Assembly (NCBI RefSeq): GCF_019375475.1
Contig: NZ_JAHXGQ010000001.1
Span: 682,001 to 746,000, forward strand
DNA from: Saccharothrix obliqua
GTDB taxonomy: Bacteria; Actinomycetota; Actinomycetes; Mycobacteriales; Pseudonocardiaceae
DNA length: 64,000 nt
Reading direction: 5' to 3'
A model generated the notes under the pieces. That model was not told where the DNA came from, did not search any database, and was given only the letters and a program-made list of their open reading frames with translations. Of this stretch, positions 4,796-14,537 are shown piece by piece (position 1 is the stretch's first letter; each line of letters opens with the position of its first letter). A program made the translations under genes and the position numbers.

Positions 4796-4940
4796 GTGTA
4801 TTCCCCTCCTCGCGCGCTCAGTGTGACTCACCGGGCAGCGCAACGTCACCTCCGACCCCCCGACCGGGCGGCACGGCGACGTCATGGATCGCCTCCCACG
4901 ACGTCCCGTATCCGTGTTCCGAGGGCGAGGAGGCATCCGG

Positions 4941-5783
4941 GTGGGTGTGCGGGGAACGACGACCGCCGGCGAGGCCGGCGAACCGGTGTCCACGGGCCGG
5001 TCGCCCGGTGCGGACGCGGCGCGGGCGTTGCGGTCGAGGTGGCGGACGGCGACCACGGCCGCGGGGTGGGCGTTCCCCGCCGACTGGCCGCTGCCCGAGG
5101 TCGACGAGGTGTGCGCGGCGGTGCTGGGCGGCCCGGCCGACCCGTCCGCCGCGCTGTACCGGCTGGGCGGCGCGCGGGCCGAGGCGGGCGCGGACCTGGC
5201 GGAGACGCTGCTCGACCTGGCCGCGCTGCACGCGGTGCTCGCCGAGCCGCCCGGGTCGACCGGGATCGTGTCGCCGAACGTGGACGCCACGCCCGCGTCG
5301 ATGCTGCGGGCGACCGCGCTGGGCTGGGGCGACGTGGTGTGCCGGCAGATCGCGGACAGCGGTGCGGACGACCCGCTGACCGGGCTGGCCACCGGCGCGT
5401 ACCTGCGGACCAGGCTGCGCGAGGTGTACGCGGAGGCACGCGCGACGGGGCGCCGGGAGCACGTCCTGGTGCTGGTGGCGCTGGACCTGGACCGGGTCGT
5501 CGGCTGGTCGCGGGTGGTGGCGATGACGTTGCTGGCCGACGCGTTGCGCGAGGTGTTCGACGCGGGCCAGACGATCGCGGTGGTCGGGCCGGCGTTGGCG
5601 GCGGTGCTGGTGCGGCGGGACGAGGCGCTGCACCGGTCGATGGCCAACCTGCGGGTGCTGGCGGCCGACCGGCTGGCCGTCGACCCGCACGTGGCGCGGA
5701 CCGGACCGGCGGAGGTTTGGCTGGAGGAGCTGCCGGCCACTTATGGCGAGGCCGTCGCACTGCTGGCGGCTCCCGGGCGCTGA
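4941..5783 (+). CDS. Degenerate GGDEF-domain protein
   Basis: 280-residue soluble protein. The middle contains DDPLTGLATGAYLRTRL, the recognisable opening helix motif of diguanylate cyclase (GGDEF) domains, but the GGDEF active-site loop itself is absent and the domain is shortened. It is therefore unlikely to make cyclic di-GMP and may be a binding or regulatory remnant. The N-terminal 120 residues are Ala-rich and helical with no family I recognise. The start is set at GTG 4941 because GAGGAGG (4927-4933) lies seven bases upstream; an earlier ATG at 4884 has no ribosome site. It is divergent from the fused sigma-factor gene, leaving 145 bases between them. Confidence 0.75.
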   Translation: MGVRGTTTAGEAGEPVSTGRSPGADAARALRSRWRTATTAAGWAFPADWPLPEVDEVCAAVLGGPADPSAALYRLGGARAEAGADLAETLLDLAALHAVLAEPPGSTGIVSPNVDATPASMLRATALGWGDVVCRQIADSGADDPLTGLATGAYLRTRLREVYAEARATGRREHVLVLVALDLDRVVGWSRVVAMTLLADALREVFDAGQTIAVVGPALAAVLVRRDEALHRSMANLRVLAADRLAVDPHVARTGPAEVWLEELPATYGEAVALLAAPGR

Positions 5784-10034: not shown

Positions 10035-11198
10035 GTGGACCCGAGTTTCGGTACCTACCAGCTCGCCGAGGAGCACGAGGCGCTGCGCGAAGCCGTCCGG
10101 GCACTCGCCGACAAGGAGGTCGCGCCGCACGCGGCCGAGGTCGACGAGCAGGAGCGGTTCCCGGTCGAGGCACTGAACGCGCTAGTCAAGTCCGGCTTCG
10201 CGGCCGTGCACGTGCCCGAGGAGTACGACGGGCAGGGTGCCGACTCGGTCGCCACGTGCATCGTGATCGAGGAGGTGGCGCGTGCGTGCGCGTCGTCGTC
10301 CCTCATCCCGGCGGTCAACAAGCTGGGCACCATGCCCATCCTGCTGTCGGCGTCGGAGGAGTTGAAGCGCCTGGTGCTGCCGTCCATCGCCTCCGGCGAG
10401 GCGATGGCGTCCTACGCGCTGTCCGAGCGGGAGGCCGGTTCCGACACGGCGTCCATGCGCACGCGTGCGCGGCTCGACGGCGACCACTGGGTGCTCAACG
10501 GCACCAAGTGCTGGATCACCAACGCGGGCGAGTCCACCTGGTACACCGTCATGGCCGTGTCGGACCCGGACGCCCCGAAGAAGTCGCAGGGGATCTCGGC
10601 GTTCGTCGTGCACAAGGACGACCCGGGTTTCGTGGTCGGTTCGAAGGAGCGCAAGCTCGGCATCAAGGGCTCGCCGACGCGGGAGATCCACTTCGAGAAC
10701 TGCACGATCCCGGAGAACCGCCTCATCGGCGAGCCGGGCACCGGGCTGAAGACCGCGTTGAGGACCCTGGACCACACCCGTCCCACCATCGGGGCACAGG
10801 CCGTGGGCATCGCGCAGGGCGCCCTGGAAGCCGCGGTGGCGTACGTGAAGGACCGCAAGCAGTTCGGCAAGGCGATCGCCGACTTCCAGGGCGTGCAGTT
10901 CATGTTGGCGGACATGGCGATGAAGATCGAGGCGGCCCGCCACATGGTGTACGTGGCGGCGGCCAAGGCCGAGCGGGGAGAGCCGAACATCAGCTTCATC
11001 ACGGCCGCCGCCAAGTGCTTCGCGTCCGACGTGGCGATGGAGGTGACGACCGACGCGGTCCAACTCTTCGGGGGTGCCGGGTACACCCGTGACTTCCCGG
11101 TGGAGCGCATGATGAGGGACGCCAAGATCACCCAGATCTACGAGGGCACGAACCAGATCCAGCGCGTCGTGATGTCGCGCGCCCTGCTCAAGGGCTAG
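10035..11198 (+). CDS. fadE25: Acyl-CoA dehydrogenase, FadE25 type
   Basis: FAD-dependent dehydrogenase of fatty or branched-chain acyl-CoA oxidation, 387 residues, cytoplasmic. Signatures include YALSEREAGSDTASM and W-I-T-N in the FAD-binding middle domain, DRKQFGKAIADFQGVQFMLA, and the catalytic glutamate E370 in QIYEGTNQIQR. It is very close by eye to M. tuberculosis FadE25, and like it follows purK-purE. GTG 10035 has GGGAGGT upstream. The true acyl substrate of FadE25 is not settled. It ends just before the low-GC island. Confidence 0.93.
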   Translation: MDPSFGTYQLAEEHEALREAVRALADKEVAPHAAEVDEQERFPVEALNALVKSGFAAVHVPEEYDGQGADSVATCIVIEEVARACASSSLIPAVNKLGTMPILLSASEELKRLVLPSIASGEAMASYALSEREAGSDTASMRTRARLDGDHWVLNGTKCWITNAGESTWYTVMAVSDPDAPKKSQGISAFVVHKDDPGFVVGSKERKLGIKGSPTREIHFENCTIPENRLIGEPGTGLKTALRTLDHTRPTIGAQAVGIAQGALEAAVAYVKDRKQFGKAIADFQGVQFMLADMAMKIEAARHMVYVAAAKAERGEPNISFITAAAKCFASDVAMEVTTDAVQLFGGAGYTRDFPVERMMRDAKITQIYEGTNQIQRVVMSRALLKG

Positions 11199-11383
11199 GA
11201 CGGCGACCTCGGATCCGGTGTGGGGGCGGCGGTTCTCCATGACCATGCCGCCCCCGTGCCGCGATCTTGCGAACCGAACACGCCGTTGGTCGCCGAGCGT
11301 GCGCGTTCGTAGCTGGACGGGACCAGGTGCGTGTACGTCCGGAGCGTGAAGCCGGGGTCGAATGCCTTAGCGCGTGCATCCAT
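11195..11383 (-). pseudogene. Remnant of a tyrosine recombinase (integrase) C-terminus
   Basis: This frame encodes about 60 residues. The segment DPGFTLRTYTHLVPSSYERAR matches the end of actinobacterial phage/ICE integrases, where the tyrosine in TYTHL is the catalytic nucleophile. The rest of the catalytic domain (R, H-x-x-R) is missing upstream, and the frame drifts into the fadE25 terminator. So it is a decayed integrase tail marking the left end of a lower-GC island. It is too short to act. Confidence 0.6.
11222..11255. terminator. Hairpin terminator after fadE25
   Basis: GGGGGCGGC (11222-11230) pairs perfectly with GCCGCCCCC (11247-11255), 16-base loop, 23 bases after the fadE25 stop. 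Confidence 0.7.
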
Positions 11384-11715
11384 CTGACTGTTTGCGGTAG
11401 AGCAACCCTCTTGCCCCGAAGTTGTCCTGCCGGATCGCCTCGTGGAATAGATCGCCCGTGTGAGGCCGCTCGTTCTTGTCAGTGGCGATCAAGTTGTCGG
11501 ATCGCCTTCGGCTTGGTATGCCTCAAGGTGGTCTCGACTGGCGAAGGCAAGTTCTCTGCTTATCGACAAGTGGGATACTTCGCGGTTAACGGTGAGGGAC
11601 AAGCGGCCTTGTCAATTCGGCTGTAGCCACCGCCGGTTTCGCGAATCTTTTCAAGCCATCTACTGGCTTGGTTCGCAGTCCGTAGGGTGCGCCGCCTTCG
11701 TGTGACTTCGCATTG
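11384..11715. other. Gene-free lower-GC stretch in the island
   Basis: About 330 bases with markedly more A and T than the flanking chromosome. Only short open frames without ribosome sites or recognisable protein signatures are present. It is downstream of the membrane-protein gene and probably holds decayed mobile-element sequence. Confidence 0.5.
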
Positions 11716-12231
11716 CTATCGCCGCGAAATGGTGTGGGTCAGGTTTCGATAGGCGGCCCGCGTGCGCTTCAACACAAGGAGCAACGACAAGATCAAATGC
11801 ACCAGTAAGGCGCTCGCGGGTGCGCTGAGAACCACTGAAGCCGGTGTGTCCTTGGGGGTCAGGGCGATAGTTGTTATTAACAGTGCGGTAGTGAGTACGC
11901 CAACAAAAACCGTATACGACACGTTAGCTTCTAGCTCGTCTATCAGTCGAACCGGTTCGGGTGTCGCGGGTGGCTGGTCCAGCATGCGGATGCGAAGCTG
12001 AAATACATGGACCAGCAATCCGAAGAGGAGTGCCGTGTAAATAGAAACCCCGCTCAGCACGCCCTCCAGTCCGCGCAATTGGAACTCACCCAAAAATGCT
12101 GTTACCCCGACCAGGGTCGACGTGCCGTAAAACGCGACTATGTCCAGTGCGCGAGTCTTTCCTGTCCTGGCGTCGACCAAGGTCTTCCAATGGTCGCGAA
12201 GTATCCGCGCGGCTGACCACTTAGCCGTCAC
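11716..12231 (-). CDS. Four-helix membrane protein of an unknown two-gene module
   Basis: 171 residues from GTG 12231 (an earlier TTG at 12249 would add six). Four hydrophobic segments are visible: about 33-53, 58-84, 108-130 and 136-160, with a basic N-terminal cytoplasmic stretch and a basic tail (LKRTRAAYRNLTHTISRR). No catalytic motif or family is recognised. Base composition is well below the flanking genes and codons often end in A or T, a sign of transfer. The GTG overlaps the 3' end of the upstream 328-residue gene, so translation is coupled and the two proteins probably act together. A small multi-pass protein paired with a soluble partner is a common effector-sensor design in phage-defence modules; that role is inference only. 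Confidence 0.72.
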   Translation of the reverse strand: MTAKWSAARILRDHWKTLVDARTGKTRALDIVAFYGTSTLVGVTAFLGEFQLRGLEGVLSGVSIYTALLFGLLVHVFQLRIRMLDQPPATPEPVRLIDELEANVSYTVFVGVLTTALLITTIALTPKDTPASVVLSAPASALLVHLILSLLLVLKRTRAAYRNLTHTISRR

Positions 12232-13207
12232 GAACGGCTGCCAAGGCAACGCCGAGCTGCTGCCGTCCCCACTCTCCGGCCTCCCATGCGTACGGTAGTT
12301 TCAGCCCTATGCTGGTCCTGAGTTCTGACACTTTCTGCCTCATTGCTGCATAGACTTCGTCGTCCGTAGGCCGGTCGGCATTGTCGTCAGCTACTGGATA
12401 TACCAGGACGGGCACTCCGGGCTGGCCGACGAGCAGGCGCTTTTGTTGGACGCCATCGTTCAGGACCAGTTCGACTTCGTCGTCGTCTTGAGCCTTCAGT
12501 CCGATCACTTCTTGCGCTTTTACTTCGCTACTCAGCACCCGATCGCGCACAGTTCGAGGAAAACGCCTCTCGCCCCATCGGGGTTTGACCGCGCACACGA
12601 TCTTTCCGACAGCCTTCGCGACCGATCCGTCGGCAAAGTCGGATGATGCCCCATGTCGAGTCACCTCTATCGCGGTCATGTCCGCATTCTGAACGTACTT
12701 GTCCCAAGCCGCCTGGTCAAGCAATCCCTCGTAGTTGAAGATCAAATTGTCATCTTCGAATCGCTGCTTGAATGCACGTTTGAACTGTCCCAGTATCATG
12801 GACGCCGCACCACGACCACCGTAACGCTCGGCTAGGAATACCGCCGAATCGCCGGACTCGGGAGAAGCTAGAAGATTGCGCGTCGGCGATACCGCCGACT
12901 CGTCTTCGTCATAGTCGTGCGTTGTGTCCCCGGTCGTGGTGTCGATCAACCTTCCCGTTGTGCCGTACCGACCGTACTGCGTAATGAAGCGAATGCAGCG
13001 GCCTCGTGGTGAGATCGACTCGATGTCCAGGTAACGGCCAAACCTTTCGTCCTTTATGGGCTTGGCTTGGACATCGGAAAGAAAGCCATGGAAAAGCGCA
13101 AGGAAGTCGATTCCAGTTGCCTCCAGATCGCCGAGGTTCAACAGCGTGTCGGCCTGGCGCGCCTTAGTGACGGTCAGCTTGTAAGCGACATACGCGTGCT
13201 TAGCCAT
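12221..13207 (-). CDS. 328-residue soluble protein of an unknown two-gene module
   Basis: Not recognised. It begins MAKHAYVAYKLTV with a good ribosome site (GAAAGGGGCGA). The N-terminal third reads as alternating strands and helices; an acidic patch THDYDEDES lies near residue 98; the middle is helical and aromatic-rich (MILGQFKRAFKQRFEDDNLIF); the C-terminal third is a beta-rich stretch rich in acidic residues (QDDDEVELVL). No signal peptide or membrane helix. GC is clearly lower than in surrounding genes. It is first in a two-gene unit with the four-helix membrane protein, next to an integrase remnant, which fits a mobile defence or conflict module. The size and pairing resemble Kiwa (KwaA/KwaB) only in architecture; I see no sequence evidence for it. 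Confidence 0.75.
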   Translation of the reverse strand: MAKHAYVAYKLTVTKARQADTLLNLGDLEATGIDFLALFHGFLSDVQAKPIKDERFGRYLDIESISPRGRCIRFITQYGRYGTTGRLIDTTTGDTTHDYDEDESAVSPTRNLLASPESGDSAVFLAERYGGRGAASMILGQFKRAFKQRFEDDNLIFNYEGLLDQAAWDKYVQNADMTAIEVTRHGASSDFADGSVAKAVGKIVCAVKPRWGERRFPRTVRDRVLSSEVKAQEVIGLKAQDDDEVELVLNDGVQQKRLLVGQPGVPVLVYPVADDNADRPTDDEVYAAMRQKVSELRTSIGLKLPYAWEAGEWGRQQLGVALAAVRDG

Positions 13208-14126
13208 GGTCTCGCCCCTTTCAGCCCAGTGTAACGGGCGTCACGCAAGGTGAACGGAGATTACGCTGGACGCGTCGCCAAGCCAAGCATGACTTGCAAC
13301 TGGTCCGGTTTTACTTCGTGGAGTCAGCGGATGCCCACCGTGCGTAAGCAAAAACGATCGCAGGGCAACTCAGGATGGTGGAACCTGTGTGAGATGGCTT
13401 CACGGCCAAGGTGTGTCGCCGTCGGCGGTGCGCCCAGAGCCCGTTCCGCCGGTGCTTGCACCCGCATCCGCCCCGATTCGCGGACTCGCACTTCGCTTAC
13501 CAGCAGCGGTTTAGCGGTGCTGCCTGAGCTGCGTGTGGGAGTACGCCATCGACGACAGCGAGTTCGGCCGCGAGCCGGCGTCCACAGCCGGGGCGCTCGC
13601 GCGGTGAGTCACCGCAGGACTGGCTGTGTTCGGCGATGGACCGCCTCGACGACCTCGCTGCCTTGCCATCGGCTTGGCCACGTGGCAACGAGCGCTAGGG
13701 CCAAGACGTCAAGGGTGTTCCCTGACACGCAATGATTGACAAAGTTCAGTAGTGCCTGGTCGAGACATCCGGAGACGCGAATCGCATAGTGTGAACCACG
13801 GTGGTTCGCGTGCCCTCCGGCTTGAACTCCGTTGTATTCACCCTCGCTCCACGACTCGGCTGCGCGGTGCGCCGAGTGGGGCGTGATGTCCGCGTACTCG
13901 CCGCTTATCTCGCTGCCGCCTTCACGGCGCCACGCCACGTGCCACCGCCCACCCAGGCGCGGACTCCTGGAGACGCCACCACGCGTCGCGGTCAGCACTC
14001 GCAGGTGTGGCGGGTCGTGGACACGCCCTGTCGACATGCTGTCAAGGCCCCGCCCCGCCCCGAAGGTGGTTGAAATTTCATATAACGTCGGCCGTGCACT
14101 GACCGCGGGACGAAGGGAACGACAGC
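13208..14126. other. Gene-poor right part of the island
   Basis: About 920 bases upstream of doxX with lower GC at its left side. Several open frames of 90 to 180 codons exist on both strands, but they overlap, lack ribosome sites and show no family signature or G/C-ending codon bias. It probably contains degraded island DNA plus the doxX promoter; TATAAC at 14081-14086 is a possible -10 box. I see no tRNA or clear attachment repeat. Confidence 0.5.
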
Positions 14127-14537
14127 ATGGTTCGGGATGTGGCGGCACTCATCGGGCGCATCGGGGTTGGCGTGGTGTTCCTCGCCCACGGCTGGCAGAA
14201 GATCACCGAGTGGGGGCTCGACGGCACGGCCCAGGCGTTCGACGGCATGGGCGTCCCGCTGCCGACGCTGTCCGCCTGGTACGCCGCACTGGTGGAACTC
14301 GCCGGCGGCGCGCTGCTCATCGCGGGCGCGGCCCTGCCGGTGGTCGGGATCCTGCTCGCCATCGACATGGCGGGCGCGTTGTTCATCGTGCACCTGCCCA
14401 ACGGCCTGCTCGGCCAGGGCGGCTTCGAGCTGGTGCTCGCGCTCGGCGTCGCGGCACTCGCCCTGGGCTTCAACGGCGGCTCGCTCACCGTCGACCGGCT
14501 GATCAGCAACCGCCGCACGGCGGAGGTCCGGTCCTAG
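14127..14537 (+). CDS. DoxX-family membrane protein
   Basis: 136-residue four-helix membrane protein of the DoxX family: it opens with LIGRIGVGVVFLAHGWQKI, the family hallmark, followed by three further helices (about 48-70, 72-92, 97-118). DoxX-like proteins are linked to thiol/oxidative stress membrane complexes in actinobacteria, though biochemistry is thin. Start ATG with AAGGGAACGAC upstream. It is the first regular high-GC gene after the island and may be cotranscribed with the glycosyltransferase ten bases downstream. Confidence 0.88.
   Translation: MVRDVAALIGRIGVGVVFLAHGWQKITEWGLDGTAQAFDGMGVPLPTLSAWYAALVELAGGALLIAGAALPVVGILLAIDMAGALFIVHLPNGLLGQGGFELVLALGVAALALGFNGGSLTVDRLISNRRTAEVRS

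Follow-up and report, generated by a model that had tools for sequence, protein, structure and literature searches.

A stretch of 64,000 nucleotides from the Saccharothrix obliqua genome (here, “the window”) contains two overlapping genes that very probably encode a RexAB-like abortive-infection system of the CarolAnn/Sbash type; the element that would have carried it in by integration has decayed to an integrase scrap. The initial annotation of this DNA described the pair as an unrecognized module and the best candidate for a new system, with the design of a soluble sensor and a small membrane effector as in several abortive-infection systems, a mobile context, and pairing. That design has held up. 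The claim of novelty has not: homology leads to the actinophage exclusion pairs of CarolAnn, Sbash, Butters, and DumpsterDude, published between 2019 and 2024. The pair is a stranded chromosomal member of a known RexAB-like family in a soil-type actinomycete, and not a new system. Both proteins are homologous to experimentally tested pairs; the gene order is conserved, pairing is strict within the bacterial family, the frames are intact, the homologs show constraint, and the setting is that of a mobile element. The papers surveyed on RexAB and its relatives covered phage and prophage systems, Butters ortholog pairs in Actinobacteria, and CarolAnn-type operons behind CapK/CapS, and no description of this locus was seen among them.

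Organization and coding state of the gene pair

Gene 1 (positions 12221–13207, minus strand) has an ATG start codon and encodes a RexA-like soluble protein of 328 amino acids, which by homology is the proposed infection sensor, or activator. Gene 2 (11716–12231, minus strand) has a GTG start codon and encodes a RexB-like small membrane protein of 171 amino acids, by homology the proposed membrane channel effector. Gene 1 ends with a stop codon at 12221–12223, and the GTG at 12231 falls just within it, giving an overlap of 11 bp between the two genes. Both frames are fully open, and the stretches on either side are decayed.

The pair differs from its surroundings in base composition. GC content is 57.6% in gene 1 and 56.9% in gene 2, GC content at third codon positions (GC3) is 0.65 as compared with 0.95–0.96 in three flanking genes, and a 1-kb GC profile runs at 0.58–0.63 across 11–14 kb. 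The open frames, the GC content of ~57%, and the GC3 contrast bear out the two overlapping, lower-GC genes of the initial annotation. The same annotation described the product of gene 2 as a 171-residue, four-helix protein. The length is correct; as for the helices, a simple hydropathy scan finds three (range of three to five over the 17 proteins scanned, including that of the window), and it also finds three in CarolAnn gp43, a protein published as having four.

Among four close homologs, codon-position differences for both genes are 0.28–0.47 at position 1, 0.13–0.33 at position 2, and 0.62–0.73 at position 3. This is the pattern expected for proteins under selection; the comparison cannot date the constraint in this genome.

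Homology to phage-encoded exclusion pairs

No model in Pfam, NCBIfam, or PADLOC scores above its cut-off for either window protein, and none in PADLOC-DB 2023 matches either protein at E values up to 10. The gene 1 protein alone matches phrog_36224 (E 2.2e-5), a family that CarolAnn gp44 matches at E 1.6e-228 and that is matched by 10 of the 15 soluble homologs in our alignment A4. A Pfam match to Bestrophin (E 0.043) was dismissed, as its 13.8 bits fall well short of the cut-off of 27. Searches of the PDB by sequence gave no match for gene 1 alone, and best E values of 0.68 and 0.47 with profiles, which we take to be chance.

When both window proteins were compared by tblastn with 50,697 phage records, the closest phage relative was Gordonia phage DumpsterDude, with gp44 matching gene 1 (E 5e-12, 25% identity, query coverage 69%) and gp43 matching gene 2 (E 7e-16, 41.5% identity, query coverage 66%); gene 2 also matched Gordonia phage Doggs (30% identity, E 3e-6). 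The DumpsterDude genes are arranged in the same order as those of the window, in the series immunity repressor-44-43-...-integrase, and the Doggs pair likewise adjoins an integrase and a repressor. DumpsterDude is named among the phages with Rex homologs beside a CI-like repressor in a 2024 study of lambda RexA in NAR (PMC11077077). The phage pair directly follows its immunity repressor, whereas the window pair lies in a decayed element without a recognized repressor. DumpsterDude gp43 is annotated as starting at 5040 (115 amino acids), whereas homology and an open frame begin at 4842 (181 amino acids; L010 4842–5387), so the annotated start codon probably lies downstream of the true one.

Profile comparisons extend these links to the studied pairs. 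Alignment A4 and its counterpart A5, of 15 membrane homologs, were compared with the studied proteins by hhalign. With A4, the scores were 172.2 for Sbash gp30, 150.7 for Sejanus gp46 (annotated as “RexA family abortive infection protein”), 147.5 for CarolAnn gp44, 127.4 for Doggs gp33, 54.9 for Butters gp30, 47.2 for Pf ORF1, and 17.2 for lambda RexA; the best of 97 decoys scored 21.6. With A5, the scores were 142.3 for Doggs gp34, 120.9 for Pf ORF2, 62.1 for Butters gp31, 54.5 for CarolAnn gp43, 47.9 for Sbash gp31, 32.2 for Sejanus gp45 (with a probability of only 54.7), and 14.0 for lambda RexB; the best decoy scored 20.4, in a small control of 10 hydrophobic proteins. The soluble protein is thus homologous to CarolAnn gp44 and Sbash gp30, and its small multi-helix membrane partner to gp43 and gp31. 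In the hhalign alignments, identity to CarolAnn is 18%. As in those pairs, the soluble gene comes first and is followed by an overlapping or adjacent membrane gene.

The lambda proteins themselves are another matter. The A4 and A5 scores for RexA and RexB fall within the decoy range; larger profiles of 20–21 rows that included phage relatives gave no link to lambda RexA (scores of 14.6 and 13.0) or RexB; and the window proteins do not match the Pfam models for RexA (PF15969) and RexB (PF15968), although the lambda proteins match both. On the hhalign and PHROG results, the pair therefore belongs to the actinophage Rex-like family and not to the lambda RexA/RexB sequence families, with which it shares architecture and proposed mechanism only. 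The absent sequence link lowers the case that the pair is lambda RexAB, not the case that it works like RexAB.

The CarolAnn (gp44/gp43) and Sbash (gp30/gp31) pairs have the same architecture as the window pair, with profile homology over most of both proteins, but they are phage-borne and have known triggers (Kita gp53, and Crossroads gp132 and gp141). Mycobacteriophage Butters gp30/gp31 shows weaker but clear profile homology, and orthologous pairs have been described on chromosomes in Actinobacteria; unlike in the window pair as we read it, the reported roles are reversed, with the soluble protein as the antiviral agent. The RexABpp system of Pseudomonas putida is similar by description, with a prophage-borne, DNA-binding RexA and a four-helix RexB associated with membrane damage (PMC12894663). 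CarolAnn-type pairs have also been counted as bacterial immune operons, with DUF4747/CarolAnn behind CapK/CapS at 17 of 443 capK loci (PMC13373217); CapK and CapS, by contrast, were not recognized among the neighbors of the window pair as read.

A soluble and membrane pair near the repressor of the filamentous Pseudomonas phage PfAC16 (OR863247, positions 412–1883) is the Pf entry in the profile comparisons above and is homologous to the window pair. In the table of its source paper, PfAC16 is entered with TA and PfsE, and none of the papers surveyed on this point names RexA or RexAB.

Pairing and distribution

Within the bacterial family, the two proteins travel together. In profile searches of 200 family genomes, with at most 11 and at most 17 candidates scored per genome, the soluble and membrane profiles found the same 10 genomes and the same 11 places, and the matches were always adjacent. 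Eight of the 11 loci had contributed rows to each profile; those in G198 and G191 had contributed to neither and are still paired. In G191 the soluble match is weak (E 3.5e-4), and in G135 it holds a stop codon. The pair in G027 (G027:C1:10722652-10724015) is decaying, with a membrane gene broken across two frames and a soluble protein that falls short at the N-terminal end. Outside the family, a membrane ORF adjoins the soluble gene in six genomes (G594, G220, G839, G694, G621, and G736); in a further one, G794, the soluble gene is truncated, and no membrane partner was seen by eye among ORFs of at least 130 amino acids in 3.3 kb. The expectation of the initial annotation that the genes would occur as a pair was thus upheld at all 11 places, with one truncated, unpaired soluble gene outside the family. 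Between-homolog distances for one protein track those for the other (r 0.88 over 17 pairs), which is weak evidence because common inheritance also predicts a correlation.

Gene 1 alone found matches in 8 of the 200 family genomes, a count that the profile raised to 10, and two close relatives are from Actinokineospora, in the family Pseudonocardiaceae. Within the genus, one genome of 25 yielded the window protein. A search of the order with one homolog found 8 of 348 genomes, and a search of the phylum with A1, in which up to 5 candidates were scored in each genome, found at least 3 of 396; the genome that supplied the query is included in both counts. Gene 1 had no match among plasmids at E 0.01. 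Among viral contigs, query A3 found one contig of 52,018 bases and the query from G169 returned its own contig; no relative of the two window proteins, or of the second copy described next, was found there.

The genome that contains the window has a second pair (G000:C49:211523-213011), whose gene 1 is 18% identical to the first. An integrase scrap lies 1.7 kb from this second pair (L037 12774–12947; 39.7% identity over 58 columns, E 7.7e-7).

The island and its host locus

The pair lies between two conserved host genes on the plus strand, which from their sequences we take to encode an acyl-CoA dehydrogenase (10035–11198) and a DoxX-like membrane protein (14127–14537). The DoxX gene is found at E 1e-20 in 23 of 25 genomes of the genus, including this one, and the dehydrogenase is present in the flank at 11 of the 22 loci examined in relatives. 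The gap between the two genes is 2931 bp in the window and 554–1226 bp in the 10 relatives measured (locus L062 was left out, with only 23 residues matched). These retained flanks agree with the otherwise conserved locus of the initial annotation.

Both sides of the pair are disturbed. On the dehydrogenase side is the scrap of a tyrosine integrase C-terminus (11276–11485, minus strand), corresponding to residues 194–266 of a 277-residue tyrosine integrase, with 43% identity over 76 columns and an E value of 6.6e-12 in a single-subject search; it retains the last tyrosine box, and the integrase remnant noted initially is therefore real. What other frames add is faint (E 0.015 and 3.3), so the integrase gene is truncated and apparently frameshifted. 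Of the six integrases compared with the scrap, the only one to match is an open integrase that adjoins a homologous pair in genome G089; Pfam did not detect the scrap, which is too decayed. The disturbed stretch is bounded at its other end by the remains, spread over two frames, of an SRPBCC host gene (13755–13959, minus strand), a gene that is matched across 141–159 of its 159 residues at 16 of 22 relatives' loci. The insertion was not clean, as the SRPBCC gene was also damaged. With the integrase scrap on one side and the SRPBCC scrap on the other, the pair is best described as open cargo between two decayed stretches.

No clear att sites were found at the ends of the island, which have short two-copy repeats only; no tRNA gene was found in the window; and no phage gene or repressor was recognized beside the pair, the neighbors seen being host genes and scraps. 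In the relative G195, the corresponding site downstream of the dehydrogenase gene also contains a similar integrase scrap (L047 295–438; 62.5% identity over 48 residues), where the search of 25 genus genomes did not find the pair. Either the element is older than the present genome or one inserted there too, and the site is possibly an old integration site.

Mobile and defense context of related pairs

Related pairs are close to an integrase more often than expected. Of 15 pair loci in 14 genomes, places that were read by hand, at least 4 (G594, G089, G694, and G736) have a tyrosine integrase detected by Pfam no more than 5 kb away, as compared with 0.30 expected from the number of integrases in each genome; at a limit of 10 kb the count is at least 5 (G100 in addition), as compared with 0.59 expected; P is about 2e-4 at each limit, the limits having been set after the places were seen. 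In addition, a large serine recombinase lies ~0.8 kb from the pair in G135, and the pair in G169 is within a predicted viral contig. The mobile context proposed initially is thus supported among related pairs; what is left beside the window pair itself is an integrase scrap, in a setting with no phage genes, and chromosomal pairs are described among Butters orthologs and CarolAnn-type operons.

A defense-island scan covered 109 proteins, namely 108 of 180 called neighbor genes at 14 loci and one further gene; there was no matched control set, and no enrichment is claimed. Pfam integrase models matched 5 of the 109. Among the best 25 of 52 PADLOC families, RmrA models matched at most 3 of the 109 and SIR2-pAgo-like models matched 1, alongside small candidate families. 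Follow-up of 10 large neighbor proteins identified a BrxHI/DpdF-like helicase in one; the RmrA and pAgo matches were not traced to genes. In the closest relative, G014, the region upstream of the pair (L031 7203–8835) contains genes for a GntR-like regulator and an HTH/DUF433 protein, together with one that by eye resembles a PIN-type toxin partner, a possible toxin-antitoxin neighbor.

Possible mechanism and alternative explanations

By analogy with the homologous pairs, the gene 1 protein would be the soluble component, probably a DNA-binding dimer, and its cue would be something made early in phage infection, either a product or a DNA-protein intermediate. Once triggered, the protein would activate the gene 2 product, a predicted four-helix membrane protein, which would open as a channel or pore. 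The cell would be depolarized and its growth stopped, such that the phage would not propagate. CarolAnn gp44, Sbash gp30, and Toast gp42 are described as dimers with non-specific DNA binding (PMC11077077). The CarolAnn and Sbash pairs are reported to defend only when both genes are present, the membrane protein being the effector proposed for them, and channel opening by the actinophage pairs is a model in the cited papers. In P. putida, raised RexA reportedly acts through RexB to halt growth, and part of the population suffers membrane damage (PMC12894663). The roles of sensor and channel that we assign to the window pair are extrapolated from these systems.

The assignment of roles could be the wrong way round. 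If the pair worked as described for Butters, gene 1 would be the antiviral agent, and gene 2 would hold it at the membrane until infection freed it. Butters gp30 alone is reported to inhibit phages, with gp31 dampening it; both window families are detectably related to these proteins, and for the membrane family the score with Butters gp31 (62.1) slightly exceeds those with its CarolAnn and Sbash counterparts. For the soluble family, however, Butters scores far below CarolAnn, Sbash, and Sejanus (147–172), and the CarolAnn and Sbash systems depend on both genes, with a proposed membrane effector, making the reversed arrangement unlikely. We give somewhat more weight, although still only a minor share, to the explanation that the pair is a dead relic, left silent and without a function today when the element decayed. 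The integrase and the neighboring SRPBCC gene are scraps, the pair is present in just one of the genus genomes, and a scan for sigma-70-type promoters, the one type covered, found none in 11190–14130. Against this, both frames are open between decayed stretches, and the codon-position differences point to constraint among the homologs, without dating it in this genome.

Two further explanations carry far less weight. The pair, as two small overlapping genes on a mobile remnant, might be a toxin-antitoxin module kept for maintenance of the element and not for defense; this is quite improbable, given that neither CarolAnn gp43 nor gp44 is reported to be toxic alone and that the system is described as not evidently toxin-antitoxin. 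The last candidate is a Kiwa-type system, with a four-helix KwaA sensor and a DUF4868 KwaB effector. Kiwa similarly combines one membrane protein (KwaA) with one soluble protein (KwaB), of sizes similar to those of the window pair, with the gene order reversed. PADLOC appears to hold Kiwa models, kwaA and kwaB having been found with it in one paper, but neither is matched at E values up to 10, and homology leads instead to the Rex-like pairs. We consider Kiwa extremely improbable. A RexAB-like system with a membrane effector is the reading that we retain.

Use of diverged chromosomal pairs

Only five RexAB-like systems have been described, according to a 2026 paper, which also states that activation of lambda RexAB by T4 rII is still unexplained some 70 years on (PMC12894663). 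The pairs considered here escape the PADLOC-DB 2023 defense library, as the result for the two window proteins indicates. Tentatively, and with the odds against it, we suggest that this pair and its chromosomal relatives form a Rex-like lineage that moves on small elements of its own, each with an integrase and without a prophage repressor, that may be present in more than one diverged copy per host (two here, each near an integrase scrap) with different triggers, and that extends past the tailed phages to the filamentous Pf phages.

Diverged chromosomal pairs that sit apart from prophages are natural variants with which to ask which part of the system senses the phage, and the same variants can be used to ask where on the membrane protein contact is made. 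At one end of a loop of the membrane protein the A5 consensus reads LIDxLxxNVSYAV, which we suggest as a candidate contact site for gene 1.
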